Source of the DNA: Williamsia sp. DF01-3
GTDB lineage: Bacteria > Actinomycetota > Actinomycetes > Mycobacteriales > Mycobacteriaceae
Direction: 5' to 3'
Assembly: GCF_023051145.1 (NCBI RefSeq)
Contig: NZ_JALKFS010000005.1
Coordinates: forward strand, 806,001-870,000
DNA: 64,000 bases
In this document: positions 6,240 through 38,571 of the stretch, in pieces
Position numbering within the stretch: position 1 is the first letter of the stretch
Layout of the letters: each line of letters starts with the position of its first letter
Made by a program: the position numbers and the translations under genes
Notes under the pieces: model-generated
What the model saw: only the letters and a program-made list of their open reading frames with translations
What the model was told of the DNA's origin: nothing
Database searches by the model: none

Positions 6240-7400
6240 TCAGCCTCGTTCGTTGGACAAGATGGTCACGGCCGACACCGCGGTCGGTCCTCCGATGTTG
6301 TGGGCAAGTGCAATTCGAGCACCGTCGACCTGATTCTCCGATTCGCCACGCAGCTGGTTGAACAGCTCGTAGCACTGCGCCACACCGGTGGCGCCAGGCG
6401 GATGGCCCTTCGCCTTCAGTCCGCCGCTCGGGTTGATCGGGATCAATCCGCCCACATAGTGCTCGCGTGACTCGACCAGCTTGTACGCCTCGAAGCGGTT
6501 CGCGAAGCCGAGGTCCTCGTAACTGATCAACTCCACGCCGGTGAAGCAGTCGTGGACTTCGGCGACATCGATGTCGGCGGGGGTCACACCGGCCATCGTC
6601 ATGGCGGCCTTGGCAGCCTTGACGGTGGGCGGGAAGGTGGTCATGTCCTTCTTGTGCTGGTGCATCACCCGGTCCATCCCCAGGCCGACGCCACGTACCC
6701 ATACGGGGCGATCGGTGAACCGGTCCACGGCATCCTCGGAGGCCAGGATGACCGCCGCTGCGCCGTCGCTCTGCGGTGTGCAGTCGTAGAGCCCGAACGG
6801 CGCCACAACCGTGGGAGCCGCCAACGCTTGCTCGACCGTGATCTCGTAGCGCAGCTGAGCCTTCGGGTTGTTCACGGCGTGGAAATGGTTCTTGACCGCG
6901 ACCATCGCCATGTGTTCTTTCGTGGCCGGTGATTCGTGGAGATACCGCGTCACGTGCAATGCGAAATTCGCCGGCGCCACCAGGCCGAGGGGGTAGTCCC
7001 ACGCATTGTCGCGGGTCATGGCGGCCCATTCCCAGAACGTGGTGTTCGACGCCGTCTCGCGCACCTTGTCCGCGCCGACGACAAGCGCCACATCGTAGAG
7101 CCCTGACGCGATGGCGAGCGTGGCGTTGCGGATGGCGTCGTTTCCGGTGGCGCACGCGTTCTCCACGCGGGTCACCGGGATGTCGGTCAGGTCGAGGGTG
7201 TCGGCGAGGATGCCCGACGGGAAGCCGTCGGTGGTGGCGAGCTCACCGAACCAGGCAGCCTCGATGTCAGACTTGCTGAGCCCTTTGTCGACGTTGGACG
7301 CGGCCTCGGCGTACGCCATCGGGATGAGGTCTTTGATGCCGAGGTCGAAATGCTCGGCGAATGGCGTCATCCCGGCGCCGACGATCGCAACTTTCCTCAT
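6240..7400 (-). CDS. SCP-x type thiolase / lipid-transfer protein with active-site Cys
   Basis: A 386-aa protein of the SCP-x/Ltp thiolase family. It keeps the nucleophilic cysteine segment ENACATGNDAIRNA and the histidine segment EVHDCFTGVELI; the C-terminal GGLKAKGHPPGATG is the family loop. With Cys and His retained, thiolytic cleavage is plausible, unlike the aldolase-like homologues at 25667 and 37379. The ATG (7400) overlaps the stop of the upstream HMGCS-like/OB-fold gene (ATGA, 7397-7400), so the two products probably form a complex. Thiolase/DUF35 pairing is known from steroid aldolases and archaeal acetoacetyl-CoA thiolase/HMG-CoA synthase complexes. The substrate is unknown. Confidence 0.87.
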   Translation of the reverse strand: MRKVAIVGAGMTPFAEHFDLGIKDLIPMAYAEAASNVDKGLSKSDIEAAWFGELATTDGFPSGILADTLDLTDIPVTRVENACATGNDAIRNATLAIASGLYDVALVVGADKVRETASNTTFWEWAAMTRDNAWDYPLGLVAPANFALHVTRYLHESPATKEHMAMVAVKNHFHAVNNPKAQLRYEITVEQALAAPTVVAPFGLYDCTPQSDGAAAVILASEDAVDRFTDRPVWVRGVGLGMDRVMHQHKKDMTTFPPTVKAAKAAMTMAGVTPADIDVAEVHDCFTGVELISYEDLGFANRFEAYKLVESREHYVGGLIPINPSGGLKAKGHPPGATGVAQCYELFNQLRGESENQVDGARIALAHNIGGPTAVSAVTILSNERG

Positions 7401-8662
7401 TGACGTGCTCCTTCGGTCGCGGCAGCCAGAGCCGCGGTTGTGGGTTCGGCGGACCTGCCGGGCCAGAAGGCGTATCCGTAGTCGGGGACGCCGCTGCGCA
7501 TGGCGACGCGGCGCAGCACCACCGCGCCGGACTGGCCGATCTCGATGTCACCGGCGACTGCTGCGGTGACCTTCAGGAGCACGCGCACCGGACTGTCCGT
7601 GAGCTGAACCAATGCGATCGTGTACGGACTGGGCAGATCGGGCACCGGGATCTCGATGGTCGTGTGGGTGTACACCTCGCCCGTGCGGGGAAGTGGCTGC
7701 AGGGTGTACTCGGTCTGCAGCGTTCCCGCATCGTCGACCCGGTGACGCGGCGGGAAGACAGGTTCGTCGTCGCCGGGGAAGATCGCTGCTTCCCAACGCA
7801 GCTTCGGCTCGAAGGCACGCGAGTAGGCAGCCAGGGAGATCGGGATCCCGATCCCCGGGGCGACAATCGCCTTGGGCAATTCCCCGGAAAGGGTCTCGTC
7901 GCGCGTGACCACCGCTGTGGTGGCGCCCAGGTGCAGCGTGGCGCTGGCGGCAACCGACTGCTCGGTGGCCAGGATCAGGCCCGGCTGACCGGACTCGACA
8001 GCCTCCGCGAGTACCCGGATGGCAGCGCTCGCCCCGGCACTCGGATCGTTGATCGGGGCCTTCTTGTAGGCACCGCCGACATGTGCGGCCTTGACTCCGG
8101 CGACGGCGGCCACCACCAGGTCCTGTTGCCCGGTTGAGCTGAGCCGAGCGACCGTGGCCTTGACACCGACCTCACGCTGCAATCGCGGGTCTGCGTACTC
8201 GTGGCGTTCGCCTTGGTCGGTGCGGATCACCACCGGAAGGTTGCGGGTTTGCCCACCCACGGCAACCAGTCGGGTGCCCGCGGGTGAGGTCCCGGTCAGT
8301 ACCGCTCCGGCGGCCGCTGTTGTCTGCGAATCGTCGGCGGCGATGATCAGCGTATGCGGATCAGCCGACGTCACCTGGTCGAGGACCGCAGGGGCACCTC
8401 CGAGAACCTCGGTGATCGGCACGTCGGGGTCGAGTGAGAGGCCGGCCAGCAGCACCGCGGCGTTACCGCCCTCGATGAGCGGCATGTTCCGGGACACGAT
8501 GACAACGCGCTGCGCGTGGCGTGCGGGGTCGGCCGCGCGGCCGGCCGCGACGGCCATGGTGACCGCGTCCTCGTCCGGACCGCGAACCCGTTTCCCAGCT
8601 TTGGTCCACGGCGGCAGGTACGTCCCGATCGCTACGATCTCACTCAAGGTTTCGCCATTCAT
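7397..8662 (-). CDS. Cys-free HMG-CoA-synthase-like protein fused to a DUF35 OB-fold
   Basis: A 421-aa two-domain protein. Residues about 1-270 resemble archaeal-type HMG-CoA synthase: EIVAIGTYLPPW, a GPDEDAVTMAV segment and LIIAADDSQ. Residues about 290-400 resemble the DUF35 OB-fold (LPRTGEVYTHTTIEIP, PYTIALVQL, RVLLKV). The protein contains no cysteine at all: the synthase nucleophile segment reads ITEVLGGAPAVLDQV, and the zinc-ribbon cysteines usual in DUF35 are absent. It is therefore probably a non-catalytic scaffold or acyl-CoA-binding partner of the thiolase encoded next (4-nt overlap). ATG 8662 is preferred; a TTG at 8686 is an alternative. Domain assignment is from pattern, not from a search. 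Confidence 0.75.
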   Translation of the reverse strand: MNGETLSEIVAIGTYLPPWTKAGKRVRGPDEDAVTMAVAAGRAADPARHAQRVVIVSRNMPLIEGGNAAVLLAGLSLDPDVPITEVLGGAPAVLDQVTSADPHTLIIAADDSQTTAAAGAVLTGTSPAGTRLVAVGGQTRNLPVVIRTDQGERHEYADPRLQREVGVKATVARLSSTGQQDLVVAAVAGVKAAHVGGAYKKAPINDPSAGASAAIRVLAEAVESGQPGLILATEQSVAASATLHLGATTAVVTRDETLSGELPKAIVAPGIGIPISLAAYSRAFEPKLRWEAAIFPGDDEPVFPPRHRVDDAGTLQTEYTLQPLPRTGEVYTHTTIEIPVPDLPSPYTIALVQLTDSPVRVLLKVTAAVAGDIEIGQSGAVVLRRVAMRSGVPDYGYAFWPGRSAEPTTAALAAATEGARQ

Positions 8663-8702
8663 CCGATGTGCGCCAGTGTGGCCCAACGACTTTCTAATAG
8701 GG

Positions 8703-8724
8703 TATATAGTTAGCTGATTAGGGG
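8703..8724. promoter_or_regulatory. Candidate operator with core TTAGCTGATTA
   Basis: TATATAGTTAGCTGATTAGG lies in the 116-bp divergent gap between the HMGCS-like gene and the acyl-CoA dehydrogenase at 8779. The core TTAGCTGATTA (8710-8720) ends 58 nt before that start. An 18-nt stretch matches 16 positions at 62029-62046, which is also about 57 nt before a start codon. Similar cores occur at 20797-20807 and 48305-48315. Shared regulator binding or a shared promoter element is inferred. Confidence 0.5.
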
Positions 8725-8778
8725 CAACTGTGCGTTTGGTCCGCAGCGTATGGGCGTCGGTGCCCGGGAGGGATCCAC

Positions 8779-9951
8779 ATGAGCGGTTCGTTTGCCCTAC
8801 TGGGTATGCATCACGAGGAGCTCGACGCCGTTCGCGGCCGGATCCGCGAGTTCCTCGCGGCAGACCGTGCGGAGTTCGGCTGGAAGCCCGCCGTCGACTC
8901 GTGGTTGTCGCGCTGGGATCCGGATTTCAGCGTCAGGCTCGGCGAGGCCGGCCTGCTGGGTCTGACGATTCCCGAGAACTACGGTGGCCGCGGCAGTGAA
9001 CATCTGCACCGCTACGTCGTCACCGAAGAGCTGCTTGCCCAGGGCGCGCCGGTGGCGGCGCACTGGGTGGCCGACCGGCAGGTGGCGCCTACCCTGCTCC
9101 GATTCGGCACCGAAGAGCAGAAAACCCGGATCTTGCCCGAGATAGCAAGTGGCCGTTTCTATTCCGCGATCGGGATGAGCGAGCACGGTGCCGGTTCCGA
9201 TCTGGCTGCGGTGAAAACCAAGGCCACCAGGGCCGAGGGTGGCTGGATCATCAACGGCACGAAAGTGTGGACGAGCGGCGCACATCACGCGCACATGGTG
9301 GTTGTCCTCGCCAGGACCACGCCGGTTGATCCCGAGGCGCGGCACAAGGGTTTCAGCCAGTTCCTGGTCCCGACCGACGCCGCGGGCGTCGACATCAGCC
9401 CGATCGAACTGATGTCGGGTGAGCACCACTTCAACGAGGTCGCGCTGACTGACGTGTTCGTTCCCGACTCGGAGGTTCTCGGTGAGGTCGGCAACGGATG
9501 GCACCAGGTGACCGCAGAATTGTCCTACGAGCGCAGCGGCCCGGAGCGATTCCTCTCCACGATGCCTCTCCTGCTGGCGGTGATCGGCTGGCTGAGCGCC
9601 GGGGATTTCTCGCCGTCGCCGTCGATCACCGCAGCAGTCGGAGATCTGGGGTCGCGGGTGATCGCCCTGCGGCAGTTGTCGACAGCTGTTGCGCGGGCGC
9701 TCGAGGCAGGCGACTCACCTGCGAACCAGGCCGCCCTCGTCAAGGATCTCGGTACGAGGTTCGAACAGGATTCGGTTGATCTCGTCTCCCGGCTCCTCGA
9801 CGACGTCGAGGCCGACACCGGTCGTGCGCCGACGCCCGAGATCGCCGAGTTGCTGCGAGACGCGCGGTTGCATCAGGCGCTGTTCACGCTGCGTGGAGGG
9901 ACCAACGAGGTACTGCGCGGTGTCATCGCCCGCGGTTTGGGCCTTCGGTAA
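8779..9951 (+). CDS. Acyl-CoA dehydrogenase, alpha-type (FadE)
   Basis: A 390-aa FAD-dependent acyl-CoA dehydrogenase that forms the 2,3-double bond of an acyl-CoA and passes electrons to ETF. Visible motifs are GLTIPENYGGRG, GMSEHGAGSDLA (substrate/FAD loop), IINGTKVWTSGA and the C-terminal RGGTNEVLRG. SYERSGPER at the helix-G position offers a catalytic Glu as in isovaleryl-CoA-dehydrogenase-like members (inference). ATG 8779 follows GGGAGG. The next gene encodes a beta-type partner that lacks the GAGSD loop; such adjacent pairs form alpha2beta2 heterotetramers in actinobacterial steroid side-chain oxidation. The probable control site is at 8703-8724. Confidence 0.9.
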   Translation: MSGSFALLGMHHEELDAVRGRIREFLAADRAEFGWKPAVDSWLSRWDPDFSVRLGEAGLLGLTIPENYGGRGSEHLHRYVVTEELLAQGAPVAAHWVADRQVAPTLLRFGTEEQKTRILPEIASGRFYSAIGMSEHGAGSDLAAVKTKATRAEGGWIINGTKVWTSGAHHAHMVVVLARTTPVDPEARHKGFSQFLVPTDAAGVDISPIELMSGEHHFNEVALTDVFVPDSEVLGEVGNGWHQVTAELSYERSGPERFLSTMPLLLAVIGWLSAGDFSPSPSITAAVGDLGSRVIALRQLSTAVARALEAGDSPANQAALVKDLGTRFEQDSVDLVSRLLDDVEADTGRAPTPEIAELLRDARLHQALFTLRGGTNEVLRGVIARGLGLR

Positions 9952-9963
9952 AGGAGTGTGGAC

Positions 9964-19395: not shown

Positions 19396-20568
19396 TCAGA
19401 CGCGGGGGAAGTTGAGCATCCGCCGAGCGTTTGTCTCGGTGATCATCTCGACCTCGTTGTCGGGAACGTTGGCGAGTACCTCAGCCGCGCGCTTGCGGCT
19501 GTTGGGCCAGTTCGAATCCGAGTGCGGGTAGTCGATCTCGAGCATGATCCGATCGATGCCCGCCTTGTGACGATTCTCCACGCCGAACTCGTCATCGATG
19601 AAGCAGCCCCAGAAGTGCTTGAAGTACAGATCCGAGGGACGCGCGTCGAAGTCGATCGGCTGGTAGTAACGGTGACGTTCCCAGACGAAATCGGCGCGTT
19701 CGAGGATGTAAGGAATCCAGCCGATGCCGCCCTCGGCAAGCGAGAACTGCAGTTTCGGATGTCGCTGGAGCACGCCCGAGAAGATCAGGTCCACCAGCGA
19801 CCACATCAAGTTTGTCGAGAAGACGGTGATCGCGACCGCAAACGGCGCGTCGGGCAGTACCACCTGGCCCGGGATGGCTTTGGTTCCGGAGAAAGAGAAG
19901 CCCGGAACGTAGGAACCGGAACCGAAGTGCAGGGACAAGACCTGGCCGGTCTCCTCGCAGGCGTCCCACACCGGTTCCCAGTAGGTCTTGTCGTGGAAGG
20001 ACGGCAGGCCCAGGGGAACGGGAGCATCGGGGAAGCTGATGGTGCGTGAGCCCATGGCGGCGGTGCGACGGATCTCGGCGGCGGACAATTCGGGGTCCCA
20101 CATCGGGATGAGCGACATCGGGATGAATCGGGTGGGCGCGGTGGCACACCACTCGTCGATGTAGAAGTCGTTCCATGCCTTGACGTTCAGGAGAGCGAGG
20201 TCTTTGTCCTTGGCGCGCTGGAACACGCCGCCGCCGAAGCCCGGGAGCGACGGGAAGCACAGCGCGGCCTCGACTCCGTCGACATCCATGTCCTTCACAC
20301 GTGCCTTGGGGTCGTAGCAGCCAGGGATCATGTCCTCGTAACGCACCGGGTCGATACCCCACTCCTCGGGCGGCTTGCCGGCGACGGCGTTGAGGCCGAC
20401 GGTGGGGAAGATGTCGCCGTCGTAATGCCAGACGTGCTTGTTGTTCTGTTCGATGATCCGCGGGCCGCGCTCTTTGAGTTTTTCGGGAAGGCGGTCTTGC
20501 CAGACCATGGGATGCTCGATGAGGTGGTCGTCGACCGAGACGATCTGGTGGTAGTCCTGCAATGGCAT
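19396..20568 (-). CDS. Amidohydrolase family protein (ACMSD/amidohydrolase-2 type)
   Basis: A 390-aa TIM-barrel metal-dependent hydrolase or decarboxylase. VDDHLIEHP near the N-terminus stands where the first metal ligands are found, LSLHFGSGS near residue 215 and IDYPHSDSNWP near residue 365 are the later conserved His and Asp positions, and FSLAEGGIGWIPYILER is typical of the family. Members related to ACMSD decarboxylate or hydrolyse C-C bonds of ring-derived acids, so a role in ring opening is possible. The gene stands alone on the minus strand, convergent with the DapB-like gene and divergent from the coiled-coil/thioesterase unit. The substrate is unknown. Confidence 0.85.
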   Translation of the reverse strand: MPLQDYHQIVSVDDHLIEHPMVWQDRLPEKLKERGPRIIEQNNKHVWHYDGDIFPTVGLNAVAGKPPEEWGIDPVRYEDMIPGCYDPKARVKDMDVDGVEAALCFPSLPGFGGGVFQRAKDKDLALLNVKAWNDFYIDEWCATAPTRFIPMSLIPMWDPELSAAEIRRTAAMGSRTISFPDAPVPLGLPSFHDKTYWEPVWDACEETGQVLSLHFGSGSYVPGFSFSGTKAIPGQVVLPDAPFAVAITVFSTNLMWSLVDLIFSGVLQRHPKLQFSLAEGGIGWIPYILERADFVWERHRYYQPIDFDARPSDLYFKHFWGCFIDDEFGVENRHKAGIDRIMLEIDYPHSDSNWPNSRKRAAEVLANVPDNEVEMITETNARRMLNFPRV

Positions 20569-22582: not shown

Positions 22583-24046
22583 TCAGACGAGAAGGCGCCG
22601 CGTGAGTTCCTCGACCTCGGCCAGACGGCGACGCTGTACCTTGCCGACACCGAGATCGCGGGGCAGTGCGTCGGTCTGGATCATCCACGTGGGTCGCATG
22701 AACTTGGGTAAGCCCTCGATGAGTCCCGACACCGCCGACAGGTCGGGGTCGCCCACGACGTACACGGCCAGCTCGGCGGTGTCCTGGGTTGTCCACGTCG
22801 AAGCTTCCTGAACGCCTTCGAGTTCGGCGAACACACCGTCGAGATACGACAGTGGCACGTACTCACCGCGCATTCGTACCGATTCCCCCATCCGCTCGAT
22901 GAACACGAGCTCGTCACCCTCGGCGCGGCCGCGATCACCGGTACGGATCCACCCGTTGTCGTCGGACGGGGTGGGGTCCACCACGCCCGCCCGCAGGTAG
23001 CCGCTGAGGAAGAGACCGTCACGCTGTGCGCGCAGCTCGATCTCTCCGTCGGAGCCCAGGCGCCACTCGACACCGGGCCGGGCTCTGCCGGCCAGCGCGG
23101 TCATCCCCTCCGCGATGTCCACCCGCTCACCGTGCCGCCACAATCTGGTGTGCGTCAACCCACCGAACTCGGTCGAGCCGTAGCCGGTGACCCCGACGGG
23201 GATGCGGTAGCGGCGCAGGAATTCCTCGTTGGCAAAGAATGCGGCACGTACGGCGTGCGCACCGGACGGCCTCGGGTTCTTGAGCAGGATCTGAACCGGT
23301 GGTCCGTGCAGGATCAGCACCGTCACACGGTGATCGGTCACCGTGGGCCAGAACCGGGATGCCGAGAACCTGGGTGAGGTGACGAAGTCCGACAGCCCGC
23401 ACAGCGCCCCCATGAGCCCGTAACCGAGGGGGTTGATGTGGAACAGCGGCAGCGGTGCGTAGACGACGTCGGCGGGCGACAGGCAGAACGTGTCGGCCAC
23501 GTACTGACCCAGTTCGAGAAGATAACGGTGCGATTGCGCGCACAGCTTCGGTCGCCCCGACGTGCCCGAGGTGTACATCAGGGTGGCGATGTCGAGCGGA
23601 TCGCGATCGGTGCCTGCGGCGGACCGGAGATCACCTGCGTGTGGCACCCCGTCGACGGTCATCGCGCCGGACAGCACGTCGGCGTAGTCGATGCGGTACC
23701 CGTCGCCGGGCGTGACCCACCCCTTGTCTGACGCCACGGCCCCGGCTCGCACCTCGCCGATGAGATCGGCCATCAGATCGGCCGGGTACTCGGGATTCAT
23801 CACAACGGTCTGCAGACCGGCGAGCTGGGTGGCAAACCAGAACACCGTGTACTCGAGAGAATTGGTTCCGATCAGCACAAGGGTGGAGCCCGGGCGCAGG
23901 CCGAGGTCGGTCAGGATTGCCGAAATCTGCTGTGCAGCATCGATTGCGCCTGCGAGGGTGGTGGATGACTCGCCCACCTCGATCCTGAGATCGGGGCGTT
24001 CGGCGGCGGTGCGTAGCAGGCGCTCGGCCAGGTTCGACGCACTCAT
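22583..24046 (-). CDS. Acyl-CoA synthetase / AMP-binding enzyme
   Basis: A 487-aa adenylate-forming ligase. The P-loop is LMYTSGTSGRPKLCAQ, the A5 region is GVTGYGSTEFGG and the hinge is WIRTGDRGRAEGDELVFIER. The C-terminal lid is shorter than average, with LPRDLGVGKVQRRRLAEVEE carrying the likely catalytic Lys. ATG 24046 overlaps the stop of the acyl-CoA dehydrogenase upstream (24043-24046). It is the last gene of the minus-strand cluster starting at 28019. It activates an unidentified carboxylic acid. Confidence 0.88.
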   Translation of the reverse strand: MSASNLAERLLRTAAERPDLRIEVGESSTTLAGAIDAAQQISAILTDLGLRPGSTLVLIGTNSLEYTVFWFATQLAGLQTVVMNPEYPADLMADLIGEVRAGAVASDKGWVTPGDGYRIDYADVLSGAMTVDGVPHAGDLRSAAGTDRDPLDIATLMYTSGTSGRPKLCAQSHRYLLELGQYVADTFCLSPADVVYAPLPLFHINPLGYGLMGALCGLSDFVTSPRFSASRFWPTVTDHRVTVLILHGPPVQILLKNPRPSGAHAVRAAFFANEEFLRRYRIPVGVTGYGSTEFGGLTHTRLWRHGERVDIAEGMTALAGRARPGVEWRLGSDGEIELRAQRDGLFLSGYLRAGVVDPTPSDDNGWIRTGDRGRAEGDELVFIERMGESVRMRGEYVPLSYLDGVFAELEGVQEASTWTTQDTAELAVYVVGDPDLSAVSGLIEGLPKFMRPTWMIQTDALPRDLGVGKVQRRRLAEVEELTRRLLV

Positions 24047-25218
24047 CGCAAGCCTCCGAGGTCATCGGACCGCAAGATCTGTTTGGCGATGAAGTTACGA
24101 AGTACCTCCCGGGATCCGCCGGCAGTCCGGAGAACCTTGATGTCGGCGAGCGTGCGCCAGAAGGGCTGGTCGTTGTAGAGGCCGTGGCCACCGACCAGAC
24201 CGAACATTACCTTGCCGGTCAGTTCCGCGGCATCGATGGCGGCGGACTTCGCGAGTGAGGTGGCGAATGAAGGGTCCTCGCCGGATGCGATCACCGCGGC
24301 CGCTTCGTCCCGGAACCGCATCGCGGCCGAAATCGCCTGGTAGCAGTCGGTCAACTCCCATTGCAGCCCTTGAAAGTCGGTGACGACGTTCGCGCCGACC
24401 TCACGGGCGCTCGCGTAGTCGACCGCCTCGATGAATCCGCGGCGCGCCAATCCGATGAGTTCGCTGGCATTTCCGAGCCGGCTGGTGTTGAAGGTGCTCA
24501 AGAACGTCTTGAGGCCTTGCCCCGGGGAGCCGAGTACCGCGGACGACGGCACTCTCACATCGTCGAAATCGACGTCGGCCGTGGGGATCAGCCGCAGACC
24601 GATCGGATCGGTGCCCCGGGTGTGGACCCCGGCTGTGTCCATCGGCACCAGGAACGCGGTGAGGCCTTCGTCGGCGACCGCGTACACCACGGTGAGGCTG
24701 CTCTCGGCGCCCAGGTTGACGTGTGTCTTGCGCCCGTTGATGATCCACGCATCACCGTCGCGGGTGGCCGTTGTGGTCACCGAGCGCAACGCCGAGCCGA
24801 CACCGGGTTCGGAGATCGATTCACTGAAGACGATCTCTCCGCTGGCCAGACCCGGAAGCAGATCGGCCTTCTGTAAGTCTGTACCCCAGTCGAGGAGCCA
24901 GAGTTCGCCCTGGATGGCCGTCTGTGGCGAGACGATGCCGAGCCGGCCGACCTCTTCGGCGATGACGCAGTACTCCCACACACCGCCTCCGCTGCCCCCG
25001 AACTCCGGCGGTGTCACCGAGCCGACCCAGCCCCGGCGACCCATCTCCCGATAGAGGTCGACCGGGAACCGGCCCCGGCGTTCGGCCTCGTCGAAGGTCT
25101 GGCGGTGCTCGGCGGCAAACGCGGCCAAATCCTTACGGAGAGCCGCGGTTCCGGTCTTGTCTGCGGGGTCGATCGTGTTCTGGGTGTCGACGTTGGACAA
25201 CGGTGTACCGGATGTCAT
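24043..25218 (-). CDS. Acyl-CoA dehydrogenase
   Basis: A 391-aa FAD-dependent dehydrogenase. Motifs are GSVTPPEFGGSGGG, SESISEPGVGSALRSV, AWIINGRKTHVNLGAES and RTAGGSREVLRNFIAKQIL. At the helix-G position it reads STFNTSRLGNASELIG, so the Glu seen there in most of its neighbours is not obvious; the catalytic base needs a structure-guided check. No beta-type partner is adjacent. Its ATG overlaps the DUF35 stop (25215-25218), so it is coupled to the DUF35/aldolase-like pair, which suggests that it produces the enoyl-CoA that is later hydrated and cleaved. Confidence 0.85.
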   Translation of the reverse strand: MTSGTPLSNVDTQNTIDPADKTGTAALRKDLAAFAAEHRQTFDEAERRGRFPVDLYREMGRRGWVGSVTPPEFGGSGGGVWEYCVIAEEVGRLGIVSPQTAIQGELWLLDWGTDLQKADLLPGLASGEIVFSESISEPGVGSALRSVTTTATRDGDAWIINGRKTHVNLGAESSLTVVYAVADEGLTAFLVPMDTAGVHTRGTDPIGLRLIPTADVDFDDVRVPSSAVLGSPGQGLKTFLSTFNTSRLGNASELIGLARRGFIEAVDYASAREVGANVVTDFQGLQWELTDCYQAISAAMRFRDEAAAVIASGEDPSFATSLAKSAAIDAAELTGKVMFGLVGGHGLYNDQPFWRTLADIKVLRTAGGSREVLRNFIAKQILRSDDLGGLR

Positions 25219-25670
25219 CTCTGATCGTTCCTCACTCTTCGAACCAGGCGGAATTGGGGGAGTGTGACTCCGTCGAGCGTGTCGTCGAAGTGGACTTCGA
25301 CGCGTGCGCCGACGGTCACGTCGGCCGGTTCGCAATCGGATACGTTCGTGATGACGAACAACCTCGGCTGCTCGGCCAGCTCGATCATCGCCACCACGTG
25401 GGGCGCTCCGTTTCGGAAGCCTGGCAGCCTATTGCCGTGCACCGTGATGCTGCTGTAGATCGTTCCCCGCCCGGACACCTCACACCATCCGAGCGCGTCA
25501 CCGCGGTGGCAGCGCGGACAGCGAACCATCGGCGCGTGGATGAGAAGGTCGCAGCGGCTGCACTTCTGGATGCTCAGTACTCCACGGGCGGCCGATTCCC
25601 AGTAGGGCCGGGTGATGTCGTCGACGACCGGTGTCATCTGGCCGCTGGGGGCCTGGGCGTCGCTCGTCAT
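25215..25670 (-). CDS. DUF35 OB-fold protein with rubredoxin-like zinc ribbon (aldolase/thiolase partner)
   Basis: A 151-aa acyl-CoA-binding-associated protein. The N-terminal zinc ribbon has four cysteines in two C-x2-C pairs (KCSRCDL and RCPRCHRG), followed by an OB-fold (GRGTIYSSITVHGN, HVVAMIELAEQPRLF, GARVEVHFDD). DUF35 proteins pair with SCP-x thiolase-like enzymes; the DUF35 domain of ChsH2 is required by the retro-aldolase Ltp2 in cholesterol side-chain catabolism. Here ATG 25670 overlaps the stop of the thiolase-like gene (25667-25670), which supports a complex with that product. Confidence 0.88.
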   Translation of the reverse strand: MTSDAQAPSGQMTPVVDDITRPYWESAARGVLSIQKCSRCDLLIHAPMVRCPRCHRGDALGWCEVSGRGTIYSSITVHGNRLPGFRNGAPHVVAMIELAEQPRLFVITNVSDCEPADVTVGARVEVHFDDTLDGVTLPQFRLVRRVRNDQR

Positions 25671-26809
25671 GCCGCCGAGCCCAGGATGAGCGCACTGCCG
25701 CGGCTGAAGCTGTACCCCGACACGAGGGCGAGATGGGCATCGGGCACCTGACGGTCCGCGGCGGACCCACGCAACTGGGCCACGGCTTCGGCAACGTTGT
25801 TGAGCCCGTGTATGTATCCCTCTGACAGGAGGCCACCGTTCGGATTGACCGGCAGTGAGCCGCCCGTCGCGATCGCTCCGGAACCGACGAACTCGCCGGC
25901 GAGGCCCTTGTCGCAGAATCCGAAGTCCTCGATCTGGCTCAGGACCGTGTAGGTGAACGCGTCGTACAAGCACGCCACGTCGATGTCGGCAGGTCCGACG
26001 CCGGCACGTTCGAACAGCTGCTCGCGCAACCAGATCGGGAACATCGTGGTGAGGTCCGGGTACTTCTCGTACGGGACCACCGAATGGGGTCCGGCGCCGT
26101 AGGCCCAGGACCGGATCTCGACGGCCGGCCTGGCGGTGGCGTCCGTCGCCGACGTGATGACGATCGCGACCGCGCCGTCGGTCTCGAGACAGCAATCGAG
26201 CAGGTGCAGTGGCTCGGCAATCGGGCGGCACGCGAGATAGTCGTCCATGGTCATCGGTCGTCCGTTCATCACCGCCGCCGGGTTGCGCTGGGCGTTCTCA
26301 CGCATCGTCACCGCGATCGCACCGAGGTGCTCCCGGGTGGTCCCGTACTGCGCCATGTGGCGGGCGGCGGCCATCGCGGCCACCTCCACCGGCGTCGCGT
26401 AACCGTACGGGGCCATGAACTGCCGGTATCCGGCGGCCGAGCCGGTGCCGTAGTCGCCCATCCGGATCCCGCTGGCGCCGTTCATGGCGCGGTAGATCAG
26501 CACGTGCGAGGCGCGTCCGTCGGCCACGACGTCCGCTGCCGTGCCGATGAGGGCACACAACTCGGAGCCTCCGCCGACCACCGACTGCGACCAGGTCAAC
26601 GGCCCGGTACCGAGATCGGAGGCCACCTCGGACGGAGAGGCCGTGTCGTTGTCGTGATAGGTGGCGATGGCATCGATGTCGTCTACCGCGATGGCGGCAT
26701 CGGCGATCGCGCCCAGTGCTGCCTCCGTGGCCAGTTCCAGCACCGTACGGCCGGACCGGCGTGAGAACGCGGTCCGGCCGACACCGGCGATGACCGGTGT
26801 CACGGTCAC
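25667..26809 (-). CDS. Thiolase-fold Ltp-type protein, probable aldolase (no nucleophilic Cys)
   Basis: A 380-aa SCP-x/Ltp-family protein. The segment aligned to the thiolase nucleophile reads SVVGGGSELCALIG, with Gly at the Cys position. Where thiolases have His it has Tyr (VACLYDAFTYTV). Ltp2-type retro-aldolases likewise lack thiolase chemistry and use tyrosines. Together with the DUF35 partner (4-nt overlap), this supports C-C cleavage of a beta-hydroxyacyl-CoA by retro-aldol reaction, a route used when a tertiary carbon blocks thiolysis. GTG 26809 is used; GTG 26803 is an alternative. The exact substrate is unknown. Confidence 0.8.
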   Translation of the reverse strand: MTVTPVIAGVGRTAFSRRSGRTVLELATEAALGAIADAAIAVDDIDAIATYHDNDTASPSEVASDLGTGPLTWSQSVVGGGSELCALIGTAADVVADGRASHVLIYRAMNGASGIRMGDYGTGSAAGYRQFMAPYGYATPVEVAAMAAARHMAQYGTTREHLGAIAVTMRENAQRNPAAVMNGRPMTMDDYLACRPIAEPLHLLDCCLETDGAVAIVITSATDATARPAVEIRSWAYGAGPHSVVPYEKYPDLTTMFPIWLREQLFERAGVGPADIDVACLYDAFTYTVLSQIEDFGFCDKGLAGEFVGSGAIATGGSLPVNPNGGLLSEGYIHGLNNVAEAVAQLRGSAADRQVPDAHLALVSGYSFSRGSALILGSAA

Positions 26810-26849: not shown

Positions 26850-28019
26850 CTAGAGACGCTCGAAAATGGTGGCGTTGGCGGTTCCTCCGCCCTCACACAT
26901 CGACTGCAGGCCGTACCGACCCCCGGTGCGCTGCAGGTACGCCAGCAATGTTGTGGCCAACCGCGTGCCCGAGGCCCCGAGGGGGTGGCCGAGCGCGATG
27001 GCACCGCCGACGGGGTTGAGTTTGGCGTCGCGCGCGCCGGTCTCGATCTGCCATGCCAGCGGAACGGGTGCAAACGCCTCGTTGATCTCGAAGGCGTCGA
27101 TCTCGTCGATGGTGAGGCCGGAGCGCTTGAGTGCCAGCGCGGTCGCTGGGATCGGTCCGGTGAGCATCTTGACCGGATCATCGCCGGTCACCACAGCGGT
27201 GTGCACGCGCGCGATCGGCGTCAGACCGAGCGAGGCGGCCTTCTCCGAGGTCATCACCAACACGGCCGAGGCCCCGTCGGAGATCTGCGACGCGTTGCCC
27301 GCGCTGATCACGCCGCCCTCGAGGAACGGGGTCTTGAGCGTTCCGAGCTTGTCGACGGTGGATCCGGGCCGGATGCCCTCGTCACGGCTCACCACGTCGT
27401 CGTCCACGGTGATCGGGACGATCTCCGTGTCGAACTCGCCGTTCTTCTGCGCGGCCGCAGCCCGTTCGTGGGAGCGCACCGAGTACTCGTCGACCTGCTG
27501 GCGGGACAGGTCCCAATCGCGGGCGATCTTCTCCGCGCCTGCACCTTGGTTGAACGAGCCGAAGAACCCGGGTGCGGTGAGTTCGTCGGCGTAGCGATCC
27601 ACCGCCGGACCACCGGACTTGCCGGTACCTTCCACCGCGGTGGCGCCCATCGGGATCGATGACATCATCTCCACACCACCTGCGACGATGATGTCCGCCT
27701 GACCTGAGACGATTGTGGCGGCGGCAGTCGAGATCGCCTGCTGGGACGACCCACACTGGCGATCGATCGTGAATCCGGGAACGTGTTCGGGCCAGCCGGC
27801 CGCCAGTACGGCCATCCGGCCGACGTTGCCGGACTGCTGGCCCACGCTCAGCACGTTGCCCCAATGCACATCGTCCACCAGGTCCGCCGAGATGCCGGCG
27901 CGCTCGATCAGCGCGTTGAGGATCTGTGCCGACAACTCCACGGCATGAACACTCGACAGGCCGCCATTGCGTTTGCCGATGGGGGTACGTGCGGTCTCGA
28001 CGATGACGGCATCACGCAT
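26850..28019 (-). CDS. Acetyl-CoA C-acyltransferase (thiolase)
   Basis: A 389-aa classical degradative thiolase. MRDAVIVETARTPIGKRNGG is the family start, DRQCGSSQQAIS contains the nucleophilic Cys (about residue 90), FEINEAFAPV and GGAIALGHPLGASG hold the catalytic His region, and CEGGGTANATIFERL the second catalytic Cys. It cleaves 3-ketoacyl-CoA to acetyl- or propionyl-CoA plus the shortened acyl-CoA. It is the promoter-proximal gene of the minus-strand cluster 28019-22583 and has a perfect 31-bp palindrome 40 nt upstream (28060-28090). Confidence 0.92.
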   Translation of the reverse strand: MRDAVIVETARTPIGKRNGGLSSVHAVELSAQILNALIERAGISADLVDDVHWGNVLSVGQQSGNVGRMAVLAAGWPEHVPGFTIDRQCGSSQQAISTAAATIVSGQADIIVAGGVEMMSSIPMGATAVEGTGKSGGPAVDRYADELTAPGFFGSFNQGAGAEKIARDWDLSRQQVDEYSVRSHERAAAAQKNGEFDTEIVPITVDDDVVSRDEGIRPGSTVDKLGTLKTPFLEGGVISAGNASQISDGASAVLVMTSEKAASLGLTPIARVHTAVVTGDDPVKMLTGPIPATALALKRSGLTIDEIDAFEINEAFAPVPLAWQIETGARDAKLNPVGGAIALGHPLGASGTRLATTLLAYLQRTGGRYGLQSMCEGGGTANATIFERL

Positions 28020-34030: not shown

Positions 34031-34373
34031 ATCGACTCCTGTCGTGTTATGAATAGCTAACTATTTACACTCTATAGGTCCGCGCGCGGCAGTGGTCGTG
34101 GTTGGGCTTTCCGATCACGGCGAGCACTGTCCGCGAACTGGTCGACGATATCGTCAAGGGCATGGCCGTAGCATCGAAGTGCGCTTTGAAGTGCGAAGAT
34201 GTTTGCAGCCATACGAGGTCGATCAGTCGATCGGCCAACATTTTGGGCGTCATTTGACGGTTTCGTTGACAATGCCGTCTCCGGGCTCTTACCGTGTACC
34301 CAGGCGGGATTTGCGGCGGGACCGCGGTGGCGCGTGTCGCGCGATCACTCTGCGAGGGAAAGGGACAGAACAC
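34031..34373. other. Divergent intergenic region upstream of DUF35-thiolase pair
   Basis: 343 bp without a convincing gene. AT-rich near 34045-34075, where AATAGCTAA (34052-34060) is the reverse of a TTAGCTATT element similar to the TTAGCTGATTA motif. A copy of the TTTGACG/CGAAAC element lies at 34254-34273. The rest has no feature I can name. Confidence 0.5.
34254..34273. promoter_or_regulatory. Variant TetR-type operator candidate
   Basis: Read on the minus strand this stretch contains AACGAAACCGTCAAA, close to GACGAAACTGTCAAA at 30721-30735. It lies 100 nt upstream of the DUF35 gene at 34374. The left half-site carries extra bases compared with the other copies, so it is weaker evidence. 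Confidence 0.35.
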
Positions 34374-34826
34374 ATGACCGAACAAGTACCGCTGGCGGAG
34401 GGGCTGTTCACCTGGCCCGCCGAGGAGCCGGCACTGCTCGCAGGCAGATCATCAGACGGCAGGCTCGTGTTCCCGTACCGACGGCACAAGATCGTCGGCA
34501 AGGTTCGTGAAGAACTGGAGCAGGTCGAGCTCCCCAGGCGCGGAACCCTCTGGACATTCACCACGCAGAAGTTCCGGCCACCTCAGCCGCCCTACAACGG
34601 CAACGACGACGCGAAAACCTTTGCGCCCTTTGCTGTGGGGTACGTGGAACTCGAAGGCGCGTTGCGGGTCGAAGCCCGGTTGACCGAGGCAGATCCGGAC
34701 AAGCTCACCATCGGCCAGGAGATGGAACTCAAGATCGTGCCCTTCGGCGTCGATGCCGAGGGCCGCGAAACAATGATCTACGCATTTGCGCCGGTCGAGA
34801 AAGGTCAGGACGATGTCGTCGAGTGA
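34374..34826 (+). CDS. DUF35 OB-fold protein without zinc ribbon
   Basis: A 150-aa protein in the position and size of a DUF35 thiolase partner. The OB-fold part is visible (RGTLWTFTTQKFRPPQPPYN, FAVGYVELEGALRVEARL, IGQEMELKIVPFG). There is no cysteine in the whole protein, so the usual N-terminal C-x2-C...C-x2-C ribbon is lost and replaced by LLAGRSSDGRLVFPYRRHK. Its stop overlaps the following thiolase-like gene by 14 nt (34813-34826). ATG 34374 is preceded by AAAGGGA. A complex with the 34813 product is likely. Confidence 0.8.
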   Translation: MTEQVPLAEGLFTWPAEEPALLAGRSSDGRLVFPYRRHKIVGKVREELEQVELPRRGTLWTFTTQKFRPPQPPYNGNDDAKTFAPFAVGYVELEGALRVEARLTEADPDKLTIGQEMELKIVPFGVDAEGRETMIYAFAPVEKGQDDVVE

Positions 34827-35961
34827 CGTAGCGATCATCGGTGTCGGGTTGCACCCGTTCGGCCGGTATCCCGGGAAGTCCGCGCTGGAGATGGGTGAGG
34901 ACGCCGTCTACGACGCGCTCACCGACGCGGGCATCGAATGGTCCGACGTGCAGGCGCTGTATGCGGGAAGCATGGAGGTCAAGAACCCGGAGGCGATCGT
35001 CGGTCTCCTGGGCCTGACCGGGGTCCCCGGGCGGGCGGTCTTCACCGGTTGCGCCACCGGAGCGACGTCGCTGGCGATGGCTGCCAACTCGATCAAGCTC
35101 GGTGAACACGACATCACCATCGCAGTCGGTCTGGACAAGCACGAGCGAGGTGCCTTCGCGGCACATCCTTCGGTGTCCGGACTGCCGGATTGGTACGGCG
35201 AGGCCGGCCTGTTCCTCACCACGCACTTCTTCGGCATGAAGATCAACCGGTACATGCACGATTTCGGGATCACCCCCGAGACACTGGCCAAGGTGTCGGC
35301 GAAGGCGATGCGCAACGGTGCGGGCAACCCGTTGGCCTGGCGCCGCAAAGCGTTGTCGGAGGAAGAGATCCTGAACTCTCAGATCCTCAACTACCCACTG
35401 ACCCAGTACATGTACTGCGGTCCGGACGAGGGCGCTGCTGCCGTTGTGCTGTGCCGTGCCGACAAGGCGCATTTCTACACCGACAAGCCGGTGTACCTGA
35501 GGGCCAGCACCCTGCGCAGCCGACGTGAGGGAGCGTTCGAACTGCTCAGCCCGTCCCTGCCCCTGGACACCGTGCCAAGCCCGACCGTCGACGCCTCCAA
35601 GGAGGCGTACGAGATCGCCGGGATCGGGCCGTCGGACGTGGATGTCATCCAGCTGCAGGACACCGACGCCGGGTCGGAGATCATCCACATGGCGGAGAAC
35701 GGCTTCTGCGCCGACGGTGAGCAGGAGAAGCTCATCGCCGCGGGTGAGACCGAGATCTCCGGACGATTGCCGATCAACACCGACGGCGGCTTGTTGGCCA
35801 ACGGGGAGCCGGTCGGCGCCTCCGGCCTGCGTCAGATCTTCGAACTCGTCAATCAGCTGCGTGGGCGAGCGGGTGACCGCCAGATCAACGATGCCAAGGT
35901 TGGATATGCCCAGCTCTACGGCGCGCCCGGAACGGCAGCGGTCACCATACTGTCAACCTGA
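34813..35961 (+). CDS. Thiolase-like Ltp/SCP-x family protein
   Basis: 382 aa. VIIGVGLHPFGR-like start (VAIIGVGLHPFGRYPG), nucleophile segment VFTGCATGATSLAMAA with Cys retained, and C-terminal INTDGGLLANGEPVGASGLR. Where SCP-x thiolases have His and Ltp2-type aldolases have Tyr, it reads VIQLQDTDAGSE (Gln), so the catalytic type is ambiguous. It pairs with the zinc-less DUF35 protein (14-nt overlap). Thiolysis, aldol chemistry or a structural role are all open. It converges with the TetR at 36022 with a strong hairpin between. Confidence 0.82.
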   Translation: MSSSDVAIIGVGLHPFGRYPGKSALEMGEDAVYDALTDAGIEWSDVQALYAGSMEVKNPEAIVGLLGLTGVPGRAVFTGCATGATSLAMAANSIKLGEHDITIAVGLDKHERGAFAAHPSVSGLPDWYGEAGLFLTTHFFGMKINRYMHDFGITPETLAKVSAKAMRNGAGNPLAWRRKALSEEEILNSQILNYPLTQYMYCGPDEGAAAVVLCRADKAHFYTDKPVYLRASTLRSRREGAFELLSPSLPLDTVPSPTVDASKEAYEIAGIGPSDVDVIQLQDTDAGSEIIHMAENGFCADGEQEKLIAAGETEISGRLPINTDGGLLANGEPVGASGLRQIFELVNQLRGRAGDRQINDAKVGYAQLYGAPGTAAVTILST

Positions 35962-36000
35962 TCGATCCGATCGTCCCTCGTCGACAAGAGCAGATCACAG

Positions 36001-36047
36001 ACGATTCGCTCGTCGCGGCAGTCATCTGCCGTTGGCGAGCGAATCGT
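36001..36047. terminator. Nested long hairpin overlapping the TetR stop codon
   Basis: ACGATTCGCTCG (36001-36012) pairs perfectly with CGAGCGAATCGT (36036-36047), and inside it CGGCAG (36016-36021) pairs with CTGCCG (36026-36031) around a 4-nt loop. The structure spans the 3' end of the TetR gene, whose stop codon (36022-36024) lies in the apical loop, and serves as a terminator between convergent genes. Confidence 0.6.
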
Positions 36048-36675
36048 GTATCTGCTCCCCGAGCGTCCGGATCATGTCGTCGTCGTCCACCGGCAACCGC
36101 CACACGCGGCTGTAGAAGTACGACTGGTCGAGCATGGCCATCATCGTCAACCCGAGCGCCTCGGGTGCTTCATAACGCCGCTGCTGGCGGGCGACGAGAT
36201 TGGTACCGAGGAGCCAGGCCACCCGCATCTGTGTCCGTTGCGAATTGCGGCGGAACTCGTCGTCGGTCGGCGCGGATTGGGTGGACGAGAAGATGAACGC
36301 GCCGTGCTGATCCATGAAGCTGAAGTACTGACGCACCCACGAGGTGACGTCGCCCAGCGAGGCCGGCGACGGCATGTCCGACCACAGCGACACCACCGCG
36401 ACGATCTCCTTGTAGGTCTCTTCGCCGATCGTGTTGAAGACTTCTCGCTTGTCACGGAAGTACGTGTAGAAGCCCGCGCGGGAGATTCCGCACGCGTCGG
36501 TGATGTTGTTGATCCGAGTGCCTGCGTAACCACGCTCGAGGAACAGCCGCCGGGACGCGTCGATGATCGCTTCGCGCGTGCGGACCGCTCGTTCACCGAG
36601 TGCGATGCCGTTCTCCGGCGCTGCGAGTGAACTGCCGGTTGCGCTCGTGCTGCGAGGTGCGTCGTGTGATGTCAT
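36022..36675 (-). CDS. TetR/AcrR family transcriptional regulator (paralogue of 2959)
   Basis: 217 aa with a disordered N-terminal arm (SHDAPRSTSATGSSLAAPEN). The HTH is REAIIDASRRLFLERGYAGT followed by RINNITDACGISRAGFYTYF and RDKREVF. The ligand domain shares WVRQYFSFMDQHGAF and LTMMAMLDQSYFYS with the regulator at 2959. ATG 36675 is chosen; ATG 36711 is in frame and neither has a strong ribosome site. It is divergent from the DUF35/aldolase/MaoC unit, with two TTGAC-N6-GTCA sites in the gap (36757, 36846). It probably represses that unit and itself. Confidence 0.87.
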   Translation of the reverse strand: MTSHDAPRSTSATGSSLAAPENGIALGERAVRTREAIIDASRRLFLERGYAGTRINNITDACGISRAGFYTYFRDKREVFNTIGEETYKEIVAVVSLWSDMPSPASLGDVTSWVRQYFSFMDQHGAFIFSSTQSAPTDDEFRRNSQRTQMRVAWLLGTNLVARQQRRYEAPEALGLTMMAMLDQSYFYSRVWRLPVDDDDMIRTLGEQIHDSLANGR

Positions 36676-36756
36676 GTGTAGTGGTGCCCCGTGGTTCCTC
36701 CGGCGACCCATGTTCCGCCGGTTGACGTGCGAAGTCGACGGACCTGGTATTCCTCC

Positions 36757-36772
36757 TTGACGTGTGGGTCAA
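36757..36772. promoter_or_regulatory. TTGAC-N6-GTCAA operator candidate (site 1)
   Basis: TTGACGTGTGGGTCAA is a perfect 5-bp inverted repeat with a 6-nt spacer in the divergent TetR/DUF35 gap. Another TTGACGT half-site lies at 36722-36728. It has the same architecture as 30718-30733. Confidence 0.5.
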
Positions 36773-36845
36773 CTATACGTGCCTCGCCGTCGAATACGGC
36801 AGCACAAACCCCCGATGTGGTGGCAGAAGACCACTGTGCAGTTAC

Positions 36846-36861
36846 TTGACGTTGTTGTCAG
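36846..36861. promoter_or_regulatory. TTGAC-N6-GTCA operator candidate (site 2)
   Basis: TTGACGTTGTTGTCAG repeats the layout of site 1, 89 nt further on and about 90 nt upstream of the GTG start of the DUF35 gene. Two sites in one gap suggest control of both divergent promoters. Confidence 0.45.
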
Positions 36862-36947
36862 CGGAGGCATAACGTGAGGCTTGAATCACAATCGGTGCAA
36901 TCAGTTGTCCAATCTCCGTGCCGACTTCGGAACTCCAGGAGCCAGAT

Positions 36948-37379
36948 GTGACCATCCCATACGTACGACCGGAGTTCCGGATGCTTCCGGCTCCGACGCC
37001 GCAATCGCAGGAGTACTGGACGGGAGGACGCAACGGAGAGTTGCTTGTCCACCGTTGTCATTCCTGCACCAACTTCTTTCTCCCCGGGGCGCCCGCGTGC
37101 TGGCGGTGCCAGAGCACGGATGTGGCACCGGAGCCGGTGTCCGGCCGCGGAACCGTGGCGGCGTTCACGGTGAACCGACAGACCTGGATCCCGGCGTTCC
37201 CGCCCCCGTACACCGTTGCGTTCATCGAATTGGCCGAGCAACCGGACACTCGCGTGGTCAGCAACGTGGTCGACATCGATCCGGAGGACGTGACGATCGG
37301 CCTCGAGGTCGAGGTCTTCTTCGAAGAGTGGGAAGACGTCTGGATTCCCCTGTTCCGCCCGGTGAAGGAGTCGAACTGA
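36948..37379 (+). CDS. DUF35 OB-fold protein with zinc ribbon (aldolase partner)
   Basis: A 143-aa DUF35 protein. The zinc ribbon is HRCHSCTNFFL plus ACWRCQS (two C-x2-C pairs). The OB-fold follows with GRGTVAAFTVNRQTWIPAF, VAFIELAEQPDTRVVSNV and LEVEVFFEEW. GTG 36948 has AGGAG 6 nt upstream; an earlier in-frame ATG lacks one. The stop and the next ATG share one base (37379). By analogy with the ChsH2 DUF35 domain, it should bind and stabilise the thiolase-fold aldolase encoded next. Confidence 0.88.
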   Translation: MTIPYVRPEFRMLPAPTPQSQEYWTGGRNGELLVHRCHSCTNFFLPGAPACWRCQSTDVAPEPVSGRGTVAAFTVNRQTWIPAFPPPYTVAFIELAEQPDTRVVSNVVDIDPEDVTIGLEVEVFFEEWEDVWIPLFRPVKESN

Positions 37380-38571
37380 TGGGTGAGCGCGGAGGCCCTT
37401 TCGAGGGCAAGGCCGTTGTGACGGGTGCCGGCAAGTCGCAGGTGGGACGGCGGCTCGGGCGAACCGGCCTCGACCTCACAATCGAGGCGTCGTTGCGCGC
37501 CATAGCCGACGCCGGGCTCTCGCCCGCCGACATCGACGGGGTGGCCAGCTATCCCGGTCCGGGCGTGCCCGATCCGGGCTTTTCCGGTGCCACCGTTCAC
37601 GATCTGCGCAATGCACTGGGTCTGCGGAGCAACTGGTACATCAGCAGTTCGGAGACCGCGGGGCAGATCGGTCCGGTCATCGAGGCATGTATGGCGGTGG
37701 CCACCGGGCTGGCCGATCACGTACTCTGCTACCGGTCGGTCTGGGAGTCCACTGCGCAGGCATCCAAAGGTCGCGGTTCGGTGTTGATCGGTGAGGGACG
37801 GGCGAACCCGCATCACGAGTTCTTCGGGCCGTACGGTGCCATCTCGGCCGCGAACTGGCTGGCCATGCCCGCGCAGCGGTACATGCACGAGTTCGGTCTG
37901 ACCCGTGAGCAGCTCGGCGCGATCGCCGTCAATGCGAGAACAAACGCCGCACTCAATCCGGACGCAATCTACCGCGATCCGATGTCGCTGCAGGACTATC
38001 TCGATTCGCGGATGATTTCTGACCCGTTCTGCCTCTACGACTGCGACGTGCCGTGTGACGGCGCCACCGCGGTCGTCATCTCGCGCCGGGATGCGGCGAA
38101 AGGGCTTCCGAGACAACCACTCACCGTGGAATCGGTCGGAACGGGGATGTTCGAGCGGGCCACCTGGGACCAGCGCAAAGACCTGACAACGATGGCCGCA
38201 CACGACACTGCTGCCACCTTGTGGAACCGCACCGACCTGACCGTAGCGGACGTCGACTTCGCGCAGCTCTACGACGGTTTCAGCTTTCTGACGGTGCAGT
38301 GGCTCGAAGCGCTCGGCTTCTGTGAGCATGGCAAGGTGGGCCAGTACATCGAAGGCGGCGAACGCATCGCGCTGGACGGAGAACTCCCGGTCAACACCAG
38401 CGGGGGCAGCTCTCGGGTGGCCGCCTGCACGGCATGGGGTTCTTGCACGAGGCCTGTGTCCAGCTCTGGGGCGAGGGTGGCGAACGACAGATCCGTGCCG
38501 ATACCGATGTCGCCGTCGTCGCCGTGGGCGGTGGCCCCGTGGCCGGGGCGATGTTGCTCAGTTCCAGGTGA
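37379..38571 (+). pseudogene. Thiolase-fold Ltp-type aldolase homologue with an apparent 3' frameshift
   Basis: About 397 aa if corrected. It reads ITIEAS-like family segments (TIEASLRAIADAGLSPADID) through LPVNTSGG at 38400. The frame is then lost at a run of five G (38402-38406); adding one base restores LSGGRLHGMGFLHEACVQLW, GERQIRADTDVAVVAVGG and a stop at 38571. The Cys nucleophile is missing (SSSETAGQIGPVIEAC aligned to the thiolase motif), and Tyr replaces the thiolase His (FAQLYDGFSFLTV), as in Ltp2-type retro-aldolases. The intact DUF35 partner and MaoC neighbour favour a functional gene and a homopolymer error, but real decay is possible. Confidence 0.75.

Follow-up and report, generated by a model that had tools for sequence, protein, structure and literature searches.

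The window analysed here is a stretch of 64,000 nucleotides (nt) from the 5.59-Mb genome of Williamsia sp. DF01-3 (contig NZ_JALKFS010000005.1:806,001-870,000), and it holds four modules, each made of a thiolase-fold protein and a DUF35 partner, which we name M1, M2, M3 and M4 after the thiolase-fold genes at 6240, 25667, 34813 and 37379, respectively. On balance we consider it rather probable, judging from the sequences, that M2 and M4 catalyse retro-aldol cleavages, that M1 is an ordinary thiolase and that M3 works through an acyl-enzyme on its cysteine, all within an island of acyl-CoA catabolism. The four pairs differ from one another in kind. Directly observed are the sequences, their pairing, the active-site residues, the phylogeny, the neighbourhoods and the predicted fold of the M1 partner, and from these we infer the reactions, the complexes and the substrates. 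The original prediction for this locus had described the four pairs, had read two of them as Ltp2-type aldolases and had proposed several cleavages of a branched sterol or bile acid; its observation is right, its chemistry is partly supported and its substrate is not supported. Points beyond it are a frame break in M4, the replacement of both histidines in M3 by Gln and Glu, the fusion in the M1 partner and a fifth pair to the left of the window. The parts worth pursuing are M4 and M3.

Four modules in a conserved island

The predicted pairs, with their positions, strands and overlaps of 1-14 nt, are confirmed by Pfam domains in all eight proteins: OB_ChsH2_C (DUF35) is above the Pfam cut-off in 4/4 partners, and Thiolase_C_1 in 4/4 large proteins, for M4 with the frame as printed. 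M1 (6240..7400, reverse strand) overlaps its partner (7397..8686, reverse strand, with an uncertain start codon at 8662 or 8686) by 4 nt, and M2 (25667..26809, reverse strand, the end approximate and a GTG start proposed) overlaps its partner (25215..25670, reverse strand) likewise by 4 nt. On the forward strand, the overlap is 14 nt between M3 (34813..35961) and its partner (34374..34826), and 1 nt between M4 (37379..38571) and its partner (36948..37379). The whole genome holds just 13 DUF35 matches and 12 strong plus two weak Thiolase_C_1 matches, and when 12 modules are placed uniformly, four fall within 32.3 kb in 666 of 2,000,000 trials, which is a rough yardstick, as catabolic genes cluster anyway. 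The four modules in 32 kb are therefore a real concentration.

The order of the window is kept over about 3.9-57 kb in W. muralis and Williamsia sp. 1138, in the latter without the M2 trio; in this comparison the W. muralis thiolase_39192, which is cut at the locus boundary, and a frame-broken CaiB gene were falsely scored as weak or absent. In a distant genome (G093) the core is present in two copies, consisting of M1, M3, M4, the amidohydrolase, MaoC, SDR, Rieske and cysteine hydrolase genes and acyl-CoA dehydrogenases. Judged by the conservation of neighbours across the loci of relatives, the core comprises M1, M3, M4, the amidohydrolase, MaoC, TetR, AMP ligases, acyl-CoA dehydrogenases, Rieske and cysteine hydrolase, and no diagnostic enzyme that would name the substrate is found in it. 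As read from coordinates, in 14 of the 15 genomes having the M1 partner the same contig carries an M4-class gene at a distance of up to 40 kb, and seven of the 15 also have an M3-class gene. The best explanation is that the window is a conserved acyl-CoA catabolic island of Williamsia, in which M1, M3 and M4 are recurring modules and M2 is an accessory one.

M2 and M4 on the aldolase side of the family

We placed the proteins in two trees, of 54 and 31 proteins, and read the residues from an alignment with solved relatives. M2, M4, TcLtp2, CtSal and 4u4e fall together with support of 100/99 in the 54-protein tree, and together with IpfD at 100/100 in the 31-protein tree, while M1, M3, 6esq and 6hsj are set apart from this aldolase side by 92/84 and then 100/100; several rows, IpfD and 4u4e among them, sit on long branches. 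The structure 4u4e was deposited as a thiolase, yet it lacks the Cys. The best solved matches of M2 are TcLtp2 (6ok1, E 7.5e-76) and 4u4e (E 6.7e-60), and those of the N-terminal part of M4 are again 6ok1 (E 8.3e-50) and 4u4e (E 2e-37), Cys-bearing relatives following only after these two in both lists. In the 54-protein tree none of the four modules groups with the Ltp3/Ltp4-like pair of this genome, whose own place is on long branches.

According to the available part of one report, TcLtp2 uses Tyr294 as base, His296 as oxyanion hole and Tyr344 as acid, and Tyr302 and Cys304 are the catalytic residues of CtSal (PMC12329534). In the alignment M2 has no Cys at the thiolase site, carries LYDAFT, with Ala at the His position of the YDHF of TcLtp2, and has a second Tyr (GYIHG) aligned to Tyr344. 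M4 also lacks the thiolase Cys and carries LYDGFS, with Gly at the His position, and Arg takes the place of Tyr344, as read from relatives and seen as GRLHG in the window's other-frame piece too. The same alignment confirms that M1 has His (VHDCFT) where M2 and M4 have the Tyr, and an intact Cys/His site in M2 or M4 was looked for and not found. The Cys of the YDCY in Sal is absent from both, being Ala and Gly, respectively. The Ltp2-type pattern ascribed to the two proteins thus stands as regards the missing Cys, the base Tyr and the aldolase side of the trees, and neither is a full Ltp2: M2 follows the pattern for the most part, with the second Tyr, without the His and as a sister of the Ltp2 clade, and M4 in part, having neither that His nor the second Tyr and forming a separate clade. 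Two other assignments were rejected, namely M2 and M4 as intact thiolases, with no Cys at the thiolase site, and M1 and M3 as aldolases, both lying on the thiolase side of the trees.

The clade of M4 has support of 100/100 in both trees (20 and nine rows). Scanning named genomes with two peptide patterns taken from M4 gave 77 loci, of which 76 are counted (one at 32%, L185, was left out), in Mycobacterium, Mycolicibacterium, Nocardia, Frankia, Pseudonocardia, Nocardioides, Knoellia, Janibacter and others, so that the spread covers several actinobacterial families and two deltaproteobacterial bins. A full M4 frame with YDG[FV] and the Arg is present in 74 of the 76 loci, one of the others being truncated and one without a single-piece frame, and YDG plus Arg recurs in 29/29 loci of the search among relatives, the window's own copy left out. 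DUF35 abuts M4 in 46 of the 76 loci (31 upstream, within 80 nt, and 15 downstream, within 330 nt), lies within 3.5 kb in 25, farther off in two and is absent in two, one locus having no usable M4 segment. A MaoC homologue adjoins M4, just after or just before it, in 43/76 loci; in the window the MaoC gene that had been predicted after the fourth pair is confirmed by Pfam as a single-domain hydratase at 38632..39093 on the forward strand. M4 belongs to a family that is widespread and has a catalytic signature of its own. The DUF35 partner of the window copy has a CxxC...CxxC pattern. This genome has in addition a full-length M4 paralogue at 1.51 Mb (52% over the M4 N-terminal part). On an M. 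branderi plasmid (L092, NZ_AP022607.1, 20-69 kb) an M4 at 77% is accompanied by DUF35, Rieske, cysteine hydrolase and amidohydrolase genes, together with P450s and mycofactocin-type dehydrogenases.

M2 stands beside the Ltp2 clade and outside it, with support of 93/79 and 91/88 in the two trees. Its DUF35 partner has a C4 zinc ribbon, as seen from Pfam and the sequence. The run of genes starts with an ordinary thiolase (26850..28019), continues after the pair with an acyl-CoA dehydrogenase open reading frame (24043..25335, the true start probably near 25.2 kb) and ends with an AMP-binding, acyl-CoA ligase-like gene (22583..24046), all on the reverse strand. At E <= 1e-120, with at most four candidates scored per genome, M2 is found in two of 401 genomes of the family, this one and W. 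muralis (85%). At 1e-90 the count is three among 101 relatives, with G003 added at 45%. In Williamsia sp. 1138 M2, its DUF35 gene and the following acyl-CoA dehydrogenase are all missing, with the surrounding order kept. M2 is an accessory of the island.

M3 and M1

M3 keeps the nucleophile Cys80, while Gln282 and Glu332 replace both thiolase histidines (GHP becoming GEP at the latter) and Thr284 replaces the Cys of HDCF, which becomes QDTD. The pattern of Cys, QD and GEP is found in 30/30 loci, the window copy and one paralogue from this genome being counted among them. In 27 of the 30 a DUF35 gene abuts M3; the partner in the window has no zinc-ribbon cysteines. Two paralogues with the same residues lie at 0.25 and 1.55 Mb, and the best solved match is SCP2-thiolase (E 1.1e-44). 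Such constancy in all 30 loci argues for a working enzyme with chemistry other than thiolysis. To judge from its Cys, M3 would probably form an acyl-enzyme, and since both histidines are gone, the transfer that follows should differ from thiolysis.

M1 has a site complete for an SCP2-type thiolase, with Cys/His/His in NACATG, HDCF and GHP. The Pfam match agrees with this, as do the best PDB match, which is the archaeal acetoacetyl-CoA thiolase 6esq (E 1.8e-62), and the trees, which group M1 with 6esq at 98/92 (54 proteins) and 96/91 (31 proteins). Its partner is no plain DUF35 protein, being a 429-residue fusion of a KASIII/HMG-CoA-synthase-fold domain with a C-terminal DUF35; the predicted fold is a moderate model, with a mean pLDDT of 73.4 and a pTM of 0.62. 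In a weak alignment to 3v4n (E 0.17) the column of the HMG-CoA synthase Cys is Leu in the window protein and lacks Cys in 14/14 members, two of which have a Cys three residues past the column. M1 would be an ordinary thiolase whose three-part assembly resembles the complex of thiolase, DUF35 and HMG-CoA synthase from archaea, here with scaffold and DUF35 fused.

Proposed chemistry and its alternatives

Retro-aldol cleavage is the best reading that homology offers for M2 and M4. Each would form a complex with its DUF35 partner and cleave 3-hydroxyacyl-CoAs to a ketone or aldehyde plus acetyl- or propionyl-CoA, at points where branching blocks ordinary beta-oxidation. As base, both are likely to use the YDxF Tyr, and the proton donor may be the second Tyr in M2 and something else in M4, with the conserved Arg as candidate. 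For M4 the adjacent MaoC hydratase would supply the 3-hydroxy group, and MaoC, DUF35 and M4 would together form a split version of Shy-Sal and of ChsH1/ChsH2-Ltp2; it is chiefly on this composition, in separate genes, that we base the reading of M4 as part of a hydrate-then-cleave system.

Several points weigh against this reading. M2 lacks the His that serves TcLtp2 as oxyanion hole, the support for its place beside Ltp2 is under the level starred in both trees, IpfD, 4u4e and the kin of M2 have long branches, and no hydratase is present in its run of genes. M4 lacks both the oxyanion His and the second Tyr, and CtSal loses activity once the Cys at the spot of the M4 Gly is changed, according to the part of the report available (PMC12329534), so this Gly could mean another reaction. 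At 33/76 named M4 loci no MaoC of this kind was found, some of these loci being short, and the patterns behind the named loci come from M4 itself, so that the counts show conservation within the close family and not the whole extent of the family. Finally, M4 is frame-broken in this assembly and may be inactive in this strain.

In this assembly M4 runs in more than one frame, the last approximately 54 residues lying in another frame past about 38.40 kb, and this C-terminal piece is 80% identical to the sister copy. Compared with Williamsia sp. 1138, four of 44 window genes are broken, namely a CaiB-like gene (about 12.5 kb), a VOC gene (about 33.07 kb), M4 (about 38.4 kb) and a thiolase (about 39.8 kb), a count from six rows after removing one that is a run-on frame of the relative and merging two that are one gene; compared with W. 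muralis, three of 45 are broken. Because three other genes of the window are broken likewise, sequencing error and decay are roughly equally probable. It is somewhat doubtful that the M4 gene of this strain is a pseudogene in decay, as one might suppose from breaks in both M4 and the thiolase 1.4 kb further on, for the breaks are spread across 27 kb in which the genes are well kept otherwise, which fits sequencing error as well, and the three Williamsia M4 copies fetched are full-length, the two aligned being 94% identical.

It is unlikely that M2 or M4 carries out another reaction on CoA esters, such as decarboxylation, deacylation of a ring diol as for IpfDE, or acyl transfer. In favour of such a reaction, the M4 site with Tyr, Gly and Arg is unlike that of either characterised aldolase, and M2 shares the YDAF and second Tyr of IpfD (plasmid pIBU218), which has been assigned a ring diol as substrate; the two are 35% identical and are not sisters in the tree. 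As far as the accessible parts of the reports go, an ipfD insertion mutant does not grow on ibuprofen (PMC9195938), and removal of the acyl-CoA group has been suggested for IpfD with IpfE (PMC6063337). However, the step described for IpfDE is the loss of an acyl-CoA from a carbon bearing a hydroxyl group, which would itself be a retro-aldol step in its logic, and the MaoC hydratase adjoining M4 at the 43 loci fits a 3-hydroxyacyl-CoA substrate. Because IpfD, with YDAF and the second Tyr, is needed for growth on ibuprofen, the His of Ltp2 is probably dispensable on the aldolase side of the family, and the residues that IpfD shares with M2 also count in favour of the retro-aldol reading. Near the ipf genes pIBU218 also carries an Ltp2-clade protein (YDHF, AYIHG) with a DUF35 gene (L186:939-2503), adjoined by CaiB, enoyl-CoA hydratase and hydrolase genes.

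Returning to retro-aldol cleavage by M2 and M4 and an acyl-enzyme in M3, we put forward a bolder proposal tentatively. Among DUF35-partnered enzymes of the thiolase fold, M4 and M3 might each stand for a catalytic subfamily that has not been described. M4 would be a retro-aldolase that relies on Tyr together with Arg, in place of a Tyr or Cys, as its second residue and is coupled to a separate MaoC hydratase, and M3 would be a Cys-Gln-Glu enzyme forming an acyl-enzyme without thiolysis; with M1 they would give actinobacteria a multi-step route of C-C cleavage for a bulky acid that is branched or cyclic. In the titles and abstract openings of the open-access papers found, none had the cluster, M4 or M3 as its subject. 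Which residues make an aldolase out of a thiolase has been worked out for TcLtp2 and CtSal only, in the literature found and the parts of it available. M4 (74/76 loci) and M3 (30/30) provide natural series for two other active-site solutions, among proteins that carry the annotation 'thiolase family protein'. If M4 does work without the His, the Cys or the second Tyr of Ltp2 and Sal, the rules by which such aldolases are predicted from residues must be revised, and M4 would provide an aldolase with a new scope.

The substrate of the island

The genome has its steroid-type genes elsewhere. Two genes of the Ltp2 clade, at 0.02 and 1.37 Mb, are accompanied by ChsH1/ChsH2-like genes, and at distances of 11 and 18 kb from the two stand the strongest matches to KshA in the genome (0.038 and 1.381 Mb). 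At 2.43 Mb a Sal-clade protein (L002:4131-5342), an actinobacterial relative of Sal, has YDCY and a DUF35 gene, and a further set at 4.75 Mb includes a pair that we take to be Ltp3/Ltp4-like from its gene order. In the window a Rieske oxygenase with a KshA_C-like domain (1928..2929, forward strand) reaches 103 bits, where three genes in other parts of the genome reach 311, 291 and 159; its counterpart in W. muralis and Williamsia sp. 1138 is just 65-66% identical and may represent another paralogue. Of the paired acyl-CoA dehydrogenases, the one compared with solved structures matches best 4x28 and 6wy8, which we take to be the steroid-type FadE26-27 and Tcur3481/3483, and a fused acyl-CoA dehydrogenase matches best Tcur3483 (6wy9). 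Because of these matches of the paired and fused dehydrogenases, one may fairly guess that the island acts on a bulky acid, cyclic or branched, and no more than that. That the locus is a steroid side-chain pathway for C24-branched sterols or bile acids, with M2 and M4 cutting sterol side chains, as had been suggested, is improbable: the KshA_C domain of the Rieske gene, the steroid-type dehydrogenase matches and six mce-like genes right after the window speak for it, but the two Ltp2 sets with the strongest KshA matches, the Sal-clade protein and the Ltp3/Ltp4-like set all lie elsewhere, and the window gene falls below the 311 and 291 bits of the strongest two. Nor is it borne out that one substrate undergoes several aldolytic cleavages, because M2 is accessory, being found in two of the 401 family genomes and missing from the otherwise collinear sister strain.

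Other genes in and around the window

In the two sister strains the amidohydrolase of the conserved core (19396..20568, reverse strand) is 99% identical, and the distant genome, with its two core copies, has it at 84 and 81%. Between M3 and M4 lies a TetR-family regulator (36022..36711, reverse strand), a homologue of which (at least 45%) is near M4 in 35 of 56 long loci, that is, those of the 76 with at least 19 kb. The window also has a CoA-transferase like the butyryl-CoA:acetate type (55100-56293; 56-57% in the distant genome) and genes of a branched-chain-amino-acid-type ABC transporter (57576-61090). About 18 kb to its left is the fifth pair, with a thiolase-like protein (C5:786588-787703) that has YDCF and a second Tyr, and a DUF35 gene (787910-788095). 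Named by inspection are a periplasmic-binding-like protein to the left of the window (L009:117-1409) and a YrbE/Mce-like operon directly after it (L010:9-8563), which contains the six mce-like genes.

Comparison with known systems

The closest known system to M2 and M4 is the steroid C3 side-chain aldolase TcLtp2-ChsH2(DUF35) (6ok1). Both share with it the absence of a nucleophile Cys, the YDxF Tyr and the DUF35 neighbour, and M2 also the second Tyr; they differ in having Ala (M2) or Gly (M4) for the YDHF His and no ChsH1/ChsH2 pair alongside, and M4 further in its Arg for Tyr344 and its separate clade. With the bile-acid C5 side-chain aldolase CtSal-CtShy (9myr) they have in common the Tyr base and the lack of a nucleophile Cys, and M4 has also DUF35 and MaoC in the same unit, though as separate genes. 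Unlike CtSal-CtShy, neither has the catalytic Cys of YDCY, and their DUF35 ribbon is C4 by sequence and not C3H1. M2 resembles IpfD/IpfE, for ibuprofenyl-CoA deacylation, in YDAF with the second Tyr, a DUF35 neighbour and a CoA ligase-like gene in the run, whereas the identity is 35%, the two are not sisters, the M2 run has no ring dioxygenase and IpfE has no ribbon cysteines. M3 is like the SCP2-type thiolase 6hsj in its fold, by homology, and in its nucleophile Cys, and differs from it in Gln/Thr for the His/Cys of HDCF and Glu for the His of GHP. Finally, M1 is like the archaeal acetoacetyl-CoA thiolase/DUF35/HMG-CoA synthase complex (6esq) and PhlABC (5m3k, 9skh) in combining a thiolase, DUF35 and a KASIII/HMG-CoA-synthase-fold partner, but in M1 the partner and DUF35 are one polypeptide, and this partner is without the nucleophile Cys.

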